In this document: positions 59,771-62,918 of the stretch, in pieces | How the letters are laid out: every line of letters starts with the position of its first letter | How positions within the stretch are numbered: the stretch's first letter is position 1 | NCBI GenBank assembly: GCA_016869215.1 | Contig: VGEP01000003.1 | Span: 1 to 64,000, forward strand | DNA: 64,000 nt | DNA from: Alphaproteobacteria bacterium | GTDB lineage: Bacteria; Pseudomonadota; Alphaproteobacteria; Rhizobiales; Xanthobacteraceae | Direction: 5' to 3' | Notes under the pieces: model-generated | The model's input: only the letters and a program-made list of their open reading frames with translations | The model's database searches: none | What the model was told of the DNA's origin: nothing | Position numbers and translations under genes: made by a program

Positions 59771-60184
59771 TCAGCGCCGCTTGCCCTTGCGCGGCTTCTT
59801 GCCTTCCCACTCGGGGTGCTTGTCGTAGGCCGCATTGACCAGCTTCGCCCCGATAAACGGCAGGATGCAATCCGCGATCAGGACGTGGCCTTCGCGCATG
59901 GTGAGCGGACGGTTGACGACCGCGGTCGCAACCATCGGCGACAGCGCCGTGCAGCCGATCGTGGTCAGGGCAAACGCACCGCCGCTGCCGATCGGCCCGC
60001 CTTTGCCTTTCCAGTCGGTCATCGCGAAATAGGCGACCGTCATGCCCGCGCCCACGCCGATACCGACATGCTTCACGGTGCGGTCGATGCCCTTGCCGTG
60101 CTTGCGGCCGCCTGCATCCGCGGACTGGCACGTCAGCGCCAGAGCCGCGGCGATGACCGTGAGTGCGACTGACAGCTTCCTCAT
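59771..60184 (-). CDS. Exported hydrophobic protein, unknown
   Basis: A 137-residue protein with a signal peptide (about 1-25, ending SADAGG), a Gly/Lys-rich segment, two moderately hydrophobic stretches (HVGIGVGAGMTVAYFAMTDW, FALTTIGCTALSPMVATAVV) and a very basic C-terminus (GKKPRKGKRR). I do not recognise the family. It is probably a small membrane or periplasmic protein. Confidence 0.7.
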   Translation of the reverse strand: MRKLSVALTVIAAALALTCQSADAGGRKHGKGIDRTVKHVGIGVGAGMTVAYFAMTDWKGKGGPIGSGGAFALTTIGCTALSPMVATAVVNRPLTMREGHVLIADCILPFIGAKLVNAAYDKHPEWEGKKPRKGKRR

Positions 60185-60324
60185 CGTTCCAACCCCTCAA
60201 CTGATTGAGCCCCGAACCCTGTCTGCGGCGCACAATTCACGAAGTCGAGTTCTTTGTGCCCCGCGCCGAAGTTTTGCACGCATTTTCCGGCACGGCTACG
60301 CTACGGGTTGCCGCGGAAAAGGAG

Positions 60325-60350
60325 AAGGGCCGCCCGCAAGGGCGGCCCTT
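60325..60350 (-). terminator. Strong hairpin ending the small-ORF transcript
   Basis: A perfect 11-bp stem (AAGGGCCGCCC/GGGCGGCCCTT) with a 4-base loop. CTCCTTTTCC follows on the minus strand, so termination of the small-ORF transcript is more likely than of a plus-strand RNA. Confidence 0.75.
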
Positions 60351-60422
60351 CCATTGTCAGGCCGTGGTCCGGCACCAGACGCGCAAGAGTTGCGCGCCCG
60401 GGCGTGACCGTGACGGTTCACG

Positions 60423-60500
60423 TCACGCGGCGTCCACCTCGGCTGAGGCGACGATCCAGCTCATGGATGCCGGCGACCGCGGCGATAGACAATGAGACAC
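60423..60500 (-). CDS. 25-codon small ORF with maximal Shine-Dalgarno sequence
   Basis: GTG start, 25 residues beginning VSHCLSPRSPASMSW and ending SAEVDAA, then TGA. The ribosome site upstream (GAAAGGAGGTGATCCAG) is complementary to 17 nt of the 16S rRNA 3' end, with 7 bases between GGAGG and GTG. The peptide has no recognisable domain and one Cys. It may be a real micro-protein, a leader peptide, or a ribosome-binding RNA element. Its reality is inferred from the ribosome site and the terminator downstream. Confidence 0.5.
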   Translation of the reverse strand: MSHCLSPRSPASMSWIVASAEVDAA

Positions 60501-60516
60501 TGGATCACCTCCTTTC
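60500..60516 (-). promoter_or_regulatory. Extended Shine-Dalgarno, 17-nt complement of the anti-SD tail
   Basis: The plus strand reads CTGGATCACCTCCTTTC, identical to the 3' end of alphaproteobacterial 16S rRNA, so the minus-strand transcript can pair with the whole anti-SD tail. Ordinary sites pair over 4-8 bases. Confidence 0.7.
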
Positions 60517-60649
60517 GGTTGTTGAACGATGAGGCAAAGCTAACACGGAAAATTCGATTCGAAAGTGGTGGCAGCCGTTTCTCACCGGTCTGTGGCGTGC
60601 GTGCATCAGCGGTGAAATTCCAAGCCAATCCCCCGGTTGAAACCGTGCA

Positions 60650-61120
60650 TTACGGCGCCGCGGCGGCGCGCTTGAGCCGCACGATGGCGCGGTCGAGCGC
60701 GGAGAGAAAGGCGGAACGGTCGCGCGGCGCGAACGGCTTCGGCCCGCCGGTGACTTCGCCCGCGCCGCGCAACTCGTGCAGCAGGTTTCGGGTCGCAAGC
60801 GCCATGCCGATGGAATCGCCGTCGAACGGCTTGCCGTTCGGCGCGATGACCGCCGCGCCGGATTTCACGCAGCGCGCGGCGAGGGGAACGTCCGCGGTCA
60901 TGACGACGTCGCTGCGTGTCGCGCGCTCCGCGATCCAGTCGTCGGCCGCGTCCATACCCCCGCCGACAACCACGCGCTCGATCCACGGCTCGCGCGGCAC
61001 CATGATCGGGCTGTTGGACACGACGAAGACGTGCAGCCCGTGGCGATTGGCGACGCGATAGACCTCGTCTTTCACCGGGCAGGCGTCGGCGTCGACGAAG
61101 ATGCGGATGGGCATGGTCAT
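60650..61120 (-). CDS. YaiI/YqxD family (DUF188) protein
   Basis: A 156-residue protein with the family's [20 protein letters not shown] opening, [15 protein letters not shown] and [19 protein letters not shown], all conserved acidic positions of this PIN-like fold. The biochemical role is not established; nuclease activity is only suggested by the fold. The start is one of three nearby ATGs (61126, 61120, 61114); 61120 has AAGAGA at 5 bases. Confidence 0.9.
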
Positions 61121-61239
61121 CGCCATCTCTTAGCGGTGTTTCAAACCGGATGCAGCACGAAGCGCGACGGCGCGCGGCGCCCTGCCGCCGCCCGGCAAGC
61201 CACCTTGGTCGGGCCGTGAGCAGGTGCTATCTTTAGTAG

Positions 61240-61473
61240 ATGAACGACTCGAAGCCCCTGGGAACTCTTCTTGAGCGCGCGGAATCCTGGCCGGACGAAG
61301 CGCAGGCGGAGCTTGTGCGCTTCATGATCGACATGGAAGCCAAGCATTTCGGGGTTTATCGGCTGAGCGACGAAGACCGTGCCCGCATCGAACGAAGCCT
61401 TGCTGCCGCCAAGCGCGGCGAGTTCGCGACCGACGAAGAGGTCGCGGCGCTGTTTAATCGCTATCGCAAGTGA
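61240..61473 (+). CDS. Antitoxin of a ParE/RelE-type module
   Basis: A 77-residue acidic helical protein (LLERAESWPDEAQAELVRFM, LSDEDRARIERSLAAAKRGE, DEEVAALFNRYRK). The C-terminal segment is the usual toxin-wrapping tail of this antitoxin group. Its stop overlaps the toxin's GTG start by four bases, the classical antitoxin-first arrangement. No DNA-binding motif is clear at the N-terminus, so operon control may depend on the HTH protein two genes on. Confidence 0.82.
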   Translation: MNDSKPLGTLLERAESWPDEAQAELVRFMIDMEAKHFGVYRLSDEDRARIERSLAAAKRGEFATDEEVAALFNRYRK

Positions 61474-61772
61474 GCGTCCGTTATACTCGGGACGCGCTTC
61501 ACGACCTCGATCAGATTTCGTCCTATATCGCCCAGCACAATACGCGCGCCGCGGCAGCCGTTTTGGAAGCCGTCGAAACGGTCGCTCGCCGTCTCGGACG
61601 CTTCCCCTATTCCGCCCAGGCCACGGAAATGCCCGGCATTCGGGCAACTCCGATTGCCCGCTTTCCCTATGTCGTTTTCTATTCGGTCGAAGGCAGCGAT
61701 GTGGTCATTCACTATGTCAGGCATGCGTCCCGCCTGCGGCCGTGGGAGAGCCCAAAGGATGAAAACGAATAA
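61470..61772 (+). CDS. ParE/RelE-superfamily toxin
   Basis: A 100-residue basic protein with the ParE fold pattern: SVRYTRDALHDLDQISSYIA at the N-terminus, then RRLGRFPYSAQ, and RFPYVVFYSVEGSDVVIHYV with the terminal RHASRLRPW. ParE toxins poison DNA gyrase and RelE toxins cleave mRNA; sequence alone favours ParE. GTG start overlapping the antitoxin; 3' end overlaps the HTH gene by 14 bases. Confidence 0.87.
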   Translation: MSVRYTRDALHDLDQISSYIAQHNTRAAAAVLEAVETVARRLGRFPYSAQATEMPGIRATPIARFPYVVFYSVEGSDVVIHYVRHASRLRPWESPKDENE

Positions 61773-62075: not shown

Positions 62076-62918
62076 CTAGGCGTGCCTTCTGATCCAAGCT
62101 TCGATTTGCTCCTTATCTTTATAATCTAGGCGGTACACGTCCTGCTTCACCCAATCCAATGCGCCTCTTGTTAAATGACTGGTCGTAACCAACACGCCCT
62201 TGGTCGCACCTGATTTTTGAAGCACGCCCGAAAGCTCTCGTACGGCAGAAAGCTGAACCTTTTTGTTTTCACCGTACTTCTTTGCCTGCCAAATTGATCT
62301 CAGCTTCCCAATACTCGGATCATCCTTCGATGCATAGAGATCAATTCCACCGTCCTTCGACGGCCTCGTCAGATCGACATACCAGCCTTCACGCTCAAGG
62401 ACTTCGCCGATGACTTCTTCGAATTGACGCCAAATGAGCTCGGACAACAGCTTGCCCCGCTTTAACAATTCCGCCGCCAAAATAAGATTGGATGGCGCGC
62501 GCACCAACCACTTTGGGCCACCCTCAGCGCTAGCATCCCAATGACGTGACTCCGTTGGCCTGATTTCAGAAAGGACGCGGTAGGGAACAAGATCGGCGGC
62601 AATCCATTCGTTCGTTTGAGCCCACTGGCGAGAAAGATCGCGAAGCTCTTCGAAGATTGAATCTTCAACCTGAGCACTGGGATATCCAAATCCAAGTAGC
62701 CCAGGGTCTATCAGCTGCGTTGCAATCTCTTCATCAAAAAGGGGATTCGTCAGAATGAAATCATCGAGTTCGTCATCCGTTGGCTGCCCCGTGGGACGAA
62801 CGTAACTTTCATCCTGCACCTGCCGTGAGGATCGATGCCATTCAATAGTCGAAGCCAGTTCCTGTTCGATAATTGCACGTAGCTCTAATTTTGATATTCG
62901 CTTCTTGCCATCTTGCAT
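62076..62918 (-). CDS. Mrr-type restriction endonuclease-like protein
   Basis: A 280-residue protein. The N-terminal ~150 residues are unassigned (QPTDDELDDFILTNPLFDEE). The C-terminal Mrr_cat PD-(D/E)xK domain has FEEVIGEVLEREGWYVDLTR with E168, GGID with D193, and the QxK motif WQAKKYG (Q211, K213), then GVLVTTSHLTRGALDWVK. All catalytic residues are present. Mrr-type enzymes cleave modified foreign DNA. The gene is visibly AT-richer than its surroundings and abuts a toxin-antitoxin operon, so it was probably acquired. Confidence 0.87.
   Translation of the reverse strand: MQDGKKRISKLELRAIIEQELASTIEWHRSSRQVQDESYVRPTGQPTDDELDDFILTNPLFDEEIATQLIDPGLLGFGYPSAQVEDSIFEELRDLSRQWAQTNEWIAADLVPYRVLSEIRPTESRHWDASAEGGPKWLVRAPSNLILAAELLKRGKLLSELIWRQFEEVIGEVLEREGWYVDLTRPSKDGGIDLYASKDDPSIGKLRSIWQAKKYGENKKVQLSAVRELSGVLQKSGATKGVLVTTSHLTRGALDWVKQDVYRLDYKDKEQIEAWIRRHA

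Follow-up and report, generated by a model that had tools for sequence, protein, structure and literature searches.

An RF01867 (CC2171) element as a possible ribosome-responsive small mRNA in Alphaproteobacteria

The uORF leader of a DUF1127 gene in S. meliloti has a ribosome-binding site that pairs with codons of its own ORF, and the passages of the report drawn on here propose that it monitors ribosome availability; synonymous codon changes showed that the RNA, and not the peptide, matters (PMC12218461). In rpsU of Bacteroidota, an extended Shine-Dalgarno (SD) sequence pairs over an unusual length with the 16S rRNA tail, a signal described in the cited part of that work as read by the ribosome itself (PMC9976891). 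A small RNA with a mini-ORF is also known from S. meliloti, the dual-function sRNA rnTrpL, whose peptide peTrpL is called functional in the section cited (PMC10117765).

The element described here was found in a stretch of 64,000 nt, referred to as the window. As in the S. meliloti leader, its ribosome-binding site can pair with codons of its own ORF, and the RNA appears to count for more than the peptide; however, that leader acts in cis, with presumed Rho-dependent attenuation. An identity with the DUF1127 uORF is rejected, as a self-made DUF1127 hallmark motif, used without a positive control, is found in none of 229 loci. With rpsU the element shares the unusually long pairing of SD and tail, but the rpsU product is a ribosomal protein, and the gene responds to ribosomes without bS21, whereas the product of the element looks disposable and an internal arm can cover its SD. 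The likeness to rnTrpL does not extend to the peptide, in which no amino-acid constraint is seen for the element. Of the two properties of a dual-function sRNA, a translated ORF is indicated, indirectly, by the conservation of start and frame, and a functional peptide is not.

The preliminary description presented the element as an undescribed system. It is a member of the known Rfam family RF01867 (CC2171), with the same 5′ block, closing helix and 3′ hairpin, and the match covers the full length of the model (Table 1). The family is typed as sRNA in Rfam; what sets the present description apart, and appears to be new from sequence comparison, is the spread of the element to relatives beyond the model, a start codon and a short open frame that look selected, a free peptide, and an internal arm complementary to the SD (anti-SD arm). 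BjrC1505, a possible relative of the element, was considered and rejected. This name turns up in a Herbaspirillum list, in the portion of it considered here, and an Rfam scan at gathering score finds no Bjr families at the Bradyrhizobium locus L112. As far as the retrieved portions of the literature go, searches by family name and accession found no function for CC2171/RF01867. The Rfam 15 paper has one line on CC2171, with no function there, and RF01867 is a row in the sRNA table of Mesorhizobium huakuii, likewise with no function in that place (PMC5596092).

Table 1. Parts of the RF01867 element in the window.
Feature	Position	Strand	Basis and remarks
Whole element, RF01867 (CC2171) match	60326..60524	-	cmscan 85.6 bits, gathering score 75, E 3.9e-16, model 1-159/159
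Shine-Dalgarno (SD) GAAAGGAGGTGATCCAG	60500..60516	-	17-nt perfect complement of 16S 3′ tail; last base is the G of GTG
25-codon ORF, translation VSHCLSPRSPASMSWIVASAEVDAA	60423..60500	-	start GTG 60500-60498, stop TGA 60425-60423
Internal anti-SD arm CTGGATCGTCGCCTC, within ORF	60445..60459	-	complements GAGGTGATCCAG of SD; predicted duplex -17.5 kcal/mol
Long-range helix, 5′ arm: CATTGTC then GCCGCGGTCGCCGGC, codons 3-11	60469..60494	-	minimum-free-energy fold, alifold, pair counts
Long-range helix, 3′ arm GCCGGACCACGGCCTGACAATG	60352..60373	-	minimum-free-energy fold, alifold, pair counts
Terminator-like hairpin, 12 bp, GC-rich: GAAGGGCCGCCC-TTGC-GGGCGGCCCTTC, then TCCTTTT	60324..60351	-	fold; 3′ end conserved in alignment

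Since the assembly of the window yields no 16S match (0/1), the 16S tail was read from a genome of the same genus (G003, L282), where it is GCGGCTGGATCACCTCCTTTCT. The reverse complement of this tail contains the 17 nt of the SD, and therefore the match is exact. The claim that such a complement precedes a 25-codon GTG ORF on the minus strand is thus confirmed against the same-genus tail. The SD is the only match in the 64-kb window at three or fewer mismatches, for which the chance expectation is a mean of 0.08, with one found in 8 of 100 shuffles. Its predicted pairing energy with the tail is -29.9 kcal/mol, as compared with -23.4 kcal/mol for the strongest of 132 crudely called window ORFs of at least 200 aa.

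This energy raises the case of a 30S titrator, i.e., an RNA whose very stable SD duplex would keep 30S subunits bound and so lower translation elsewhere, with the ORF there just for recycling; the part that contacts the 30S subunit is also the best conserved part of the element. An internal anti-SD arm would nevertheless weaken titration and points to regulated 30S access rather than to titration. A titrator would also require a high RNA copy number. Of the 80 class genomes that match the pattern, only G072 has more than a single match. We regard titration as unlikely. Alternatively, a very long SD may simply serve high translation. A full-tail SD also lies ahead of genes for proteins of 55-59 aa with signal-peptide-like starts (L160, L188, L245 and L246); thus small exported proteins of an ordinary kind may likewise be made from such a strong SD.

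The RNA from 60524 to 60320 has a predicted fold of -112.8 kcal/mol (z -5.83), and none of 200 shuffles is as stable. In the minimum-free-energy fold the long-range helix between codons 3-11 and positions 60373-60352, missing from the preliminary description, encloses the inner hairpins; the SD is partly paired elsewhere and the SD:arm pairing is absent. It should be noted that the SD:arm pairing and the long-range helix cross as a pseudoknot, and that the folding program cannot score such a crossing. Of the hairpins and strong terminator claimed earlier, the internal hairpins and the 12-bp 3′ hairpin are there, but the T-tract TCCTTTT is imperfect and a rule-based terminator prediction finds none at the 3′ hairpin of the window element. 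A sigma-70-like promoter was not found in window positions 60200-60800, and upstream of the element little signal is common to relatives except TTCAACAA.

In CC2171-type elements, CTGGATCnTCgCCTC in the ORF is a possible partner of the SD, and codons 3-11 can pair with the segment just ahead of the terminal hairpin. Among the 74 sequences of this type 49 have a terminator call, and these pairings were counted in an alignment of 41 of the 49. In the crossing structure 16 of 30 pairs are doubly changed, against a shuffle mean of 9.5 and with none of 500 shuffles as high; its covariation is 0.155 versus 0.035-0.073 for slid versions, a control that favours the counted structures, here and in the next alignment, because they were drawn from alifold and one member each (L005, L121). 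The main SD:arm helix of 7 bp is 87.9% paired with four of its seven pairs doubly changed, and the adjoining 4-bp SD:arm helix is 79.4% paired without double changes. The CAUUGUC/GACAAUG closing helix is nearly invariant, with 94.4% of cells paired and one of seven pairs doubly changed.

In the Rhodobacterales type (22 of 23 sequences with a terminator call, 26 in all) the SD pairs with a CAUCUCC/CACCUCC arm past the stop codon. This pairing is found in 97.4% of cells with one-sided changes only, and another helix in the same alignment has all seven pairs doubly changed; double changes in the SD:arm pairing are confined to the CC2171-type set. SD-complementary segments occur at other places in the other clades, according to a best-partner search that has no shuffle control. 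In this search the best SD partner has a CCUC-like core in 25 of 26 Rhodobacterales, 50 of 74 CC2171-type, 31 of 41 Rhizobiaceae-type, 16 of 27 Sphingomonadales and 2 of 11 Bradyrhizobium-type elements, the last of which pair mostly through GGGATCGCC.

Pairing energies were compared with dinucleotide shuffles in the 165 of 229 elements that have a rule-based terminator. The mean z of the pairing between SD and internal segments is -0.27 in Sphingomonadales, i.e., near the shuffles, -1.09 to -1.90 in five sets, and -2.69 in a set of two. For the early codons against the segment ahead of the hairpin, it is -1.56 in the CC2171 type and -1.62 in Sphingomonadales; the other sets are at -0.93 (set of two), -0.68, -0.43 (Rhizobiaceae-type), -0.38 (mixed) and -0.03 (Rhodobacterales). 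Thus the SD arm is the commoner feature, the helix of the early codons is restricted to certain clades, and there are clades in which one or the other is weak. In a permutation test of pairing (98 of 106 rows after collapsing) 117 of 196 cells are paired and the maximum of 2000 permutations is 111, a result that is inflated by relatedness; among the 34 non-CA variants, pairing at both positions is kept in just 13.

A pattern without a start codon matches 70 of 385 class genomes; two of the matched places are 16S genes, one verified and one presumed. At the fixed start place RTG is found in 66 of the 70 genomes and TTG in the other four, and the two bases that precede the start vary among the matches. 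The reading frame was followed in 229 distinct elements, chosen by tail match (one mismatch at most), NTG at the fixed place and enough sequence. The frame was not a criterion, and the set, chosen for SD and NTG, thus tests the frame and not the start. In frame 0 no stop occurs before codon 13, and in 221 elements the stop falls at codons 13-36; early stops number 109 in frame +1 and 89 in frame +2. When the elements are collapsed into 115 clusters, frame 0 again has no early stop and 110 clusters stop at codons 13-36, with 57 and 55 early stops in frames +1 and +2 and a shuffle expectation of 32% early. Some of the five exceptional clusters look like other genes. The Bradyrhizobium type gives no frame contrast, the other frames having 0 and 1 early stops in 11 elements. 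The start codon and short frame look selected, which is comparative evidence for translation.

This bears on a different reading, in which the RNA is a non-coding trans-acting sRNA. Its SD-like block would then serve as a seed, or as a sponge that soaks up sRNAs carrying anti-SD motifs, and the ORF would be there by chance. The Rfam type and the covarying structure agree with it, and alphaproteobacterial sRNAs with anti-SD motifs exist according to the cited parts of two reports (SisA-D, PMC12559287; BbsR14, PMC7717549). In Caulobacter, the pages used here report most ncRNAs as intergenic and untranslated, and two previously predicted ncRNAs as translated (PMC4117421). A kept NTG start and a short, open frame do not follow from such a reading. 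In addition, the match spans the whole tail, beyond the short anti-SD motifs quoted for SisA-D and BbsR14, and in the cases from another class given below the SD differs along with the host tail (one tail read). We consider a non-coding role in trans improbable.

The preliminary description also had a translated micro-protein in view. Start and short frame argue by comparison for its translation, but for a functional peptide the comparison gives no amino-acid constraint. The ratio pN/pS was calculated for sets of equal-length peptides within a clade and compared with the two other frames and with 30 column shuffles per set. In frame 0 it is 0.82 in Rhodobacterales (21 sequences), 1.30 in Sphingomonadales (22), 0.94 and 1.01 in two CC2171-type sets (24 and 23), 0.90 and 0.86 in two Rhizobiaceae-type sets (6 and 4) and 1.95 in Bradyrhizobium (10, hardly diverged). 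In none of the seven sets is it clearly under the other frames or the column shuffles, and in Sphingomonadales and Bradyrhizobium it exceeds the other frames. Nor is the third codon position the most variable one in any of the seven sets. Thus the synonymous bias for which the codons were checked is not seen, and the amino-acid sequence looks free.

A functional micro-protein gene of 14-27 amino acids would account for the translation signals and for peptides that are alike inside clades. Such a gene is rejected on the comparison of pN/pS, at about 1 or above, with other frames and column shuffles, and we consider it very improbable. Peptides from different clades have little in common beyond Met-Ser, and in the CC2171 type the Trp-Ile codons coincide with the anti-SD arm. 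Nor does the element look like a type I toxin mRNA, whose hydrophobic toxic peptide was not found: on visual inspection most of the peptides are polar or charged, and they show no constraint.

The element is conserved in relatives, whose lack of it had been named beforehand as grounds to drop the proposal. DNA matches are found in 40 of 61 relatives, some only in the flanks, and in the covariance-model search RF01867 matches 85 of 385 class genomes at E <= 0.001, 14 of them above the Rfam cut-off. Among 14 named control genomes the model matches one above cut-off, that of Caulobacter vibrioides. The pattern GAAAGGAGGTGRTCNNRTG matches 80 of the 385 class genomes; its reversed control has none among the matches listed. 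Pattern and model (E <= 0.001) together reach 100 of 385, of which the pattern adds 15, a count that includes weak model matches and a few pattern matches that precede longer ORFs, maybe other genes. At gathering score RF01867 finds none of 17 loci chosen mostly from clades other than the CC2171 type, and these other-clade loci keep the SD, the start and the short ORF, most of them with a terminal hairpin. The genome with two copies, G072 (L051 and L272), has one that is CC2171-like (MSHC...) and one that is Sphingomonadales-like (MSHGS...); thus in certain lineages these types may be paralogous to each other. A pattern scan of named genomes matches at least 120 stretches and is biased because the pattern carries the alphaproteobacterial tail; among the 80 matches listed, two are outside Proteobacteria (Paenibacillus and Gemmatimonadota).

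Outside the class a pattern scan matches 7 of 112 genomes, as compared with 21 of 38 inside, and the reversed control matches once. Four of the seven matches are one gene start, presumably of a korB-like gene, two look unrelated and one is element-like. The element-like version is found by pattern in 2 of 99 genomes of the order and 3 of 59 of the family, and a class-wide pattern search with it matches 1 of 185 genomes, the query genome itself. Element-like versions of 18 codons with the SD TAAGGAGGTGATC are thus found in a different class of the phylum, in three genomes that belong to a single family (L299, L303 and L306). The 16S tail in one of them is TTGGATCACCTCCTTAC, which we assume to be gammaproteobacterial. 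Thus the SD there fits its host, as far as the tail read in one genome tells. Outside the class the element appears to be rare, on a thin basis.

In the window a DUF188 gene (60653-61126, minus strand) lies upstream of the element. The neighbour on the other side is an ORF of 137 aa (59774-60184, minus strand) that has no Pfam match. Elsewhere in the window, a ParE-type toxin gene at 61470-61769 on the plus strand (Pfam PF05016, 53.5 bits) comes immediately after an ORF of 77 aa (61240-61473) that has no Pfam match and with which it possibly forms a type II toxin-antitoxin pair, and a Mrr-type restriction endonuclease domain is found at 62079-62918 on the minus strand (Pfam PF04471, 80.9 bits).

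Neighbour families are conserved inside clades only, and none of the families clustered follows the element across clades. In Rhodobacterales-type loci (among L061-L180) the neighbours, named from sequence, are genes that we take to be ArfB/YaeJ-like (ribosome rescue) and YhhQ-like; the former are near the element in 12 of 22 loci and the latter precede it in 19 of 22. The ArfB/YaeJ-like cluster comprises 15 loci, 12 of them of the Rhodobacterales type. An attenuator-like leader had been considered in the preliminary description, and a leader peptide that acts in cis on the next gene has on its side the terminator-like hairpin at the end of the element, the ArfB/YaeJ-like gene downstream on the same strand in 14 of 15 placements and the DUF188-like gene likewise in 13 of 17. 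The DUF188-like gene is upstream in 3 of 17 placements, as in the window, and both families are clade-bound. Heuristic gene calls, some clearly spurious, put the gene that follows on the other strand in 28 of 74 CC2171-type and 8 of 11 Bradyrhizobium-type loci. Because the downstream gene varies between clades and often sits on the other strand, a general cis attenuator is disfavoured and seems quite improbable. No conserved regulated gene was found directly downstream, the ArfB-like gene being frequent within Rhodobacterales. The context fits an independent transcription unit, though no promoter was recognised.

The reading that we prefer, tentatively and with somewhat less than even confidence, is that the element is a stand-alone, ribosome-responsive small mRNA, of which the translation and not the peptide matters. 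Comparison supports the features on which it builds: an SD that matches the full tail, a start at a fixed place, a frame that is open but short, a peptide that looks free, an arm complementary to the SD, covarying structure and a terminal hairpin. The SD complements the whole single-stranded 3′ tail of 16S rRNA and the anti-SD arm on the same RNA is predicted to pair with it, so that free 30S subunits would compete with the internal arm for the SD. A winning 30S subunit would initiate at the fixed NTG and translate the short, disposable ORF. This translation would open the SD:arm pairing; in elements of the CC2171 and Sphingomonadales types it would also open the long-range helix that covers the early codons. 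In this model 30S occupancy switches the RNA, whose state would then report the supply of ribosomes or the capacity for initiation. As to the output, one may guess that the arm or the 3′ part is set free and acts in trans, or that the RNA simply holds 30S subunits. A broader form of this proposal, which is possible but doubtful, would make RF01867 and its unrecognised relatives one class-wide stand-alone ribosome sensor. Its ligand would be the 3′ tail of the free 30S subunit, translation of the mini-ORF would be the sensing, and the released arm or 3′ part would adjust translation via other RNAs.

If the proposal is true, a family filed as sRNA would in fact be translated, and what is conserved would be the act of translating it rather than the peptide. 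A large bacterial class would then have a free-standing sensor of the 30S supply, and how bacteria gauge free ribosomes would become directly testable, for example in Caulobacter. In that case a frame that is kept without amino-acid constraint can mark regulatory ORFs that are missed by the annotation of both sRNAs and proteins.
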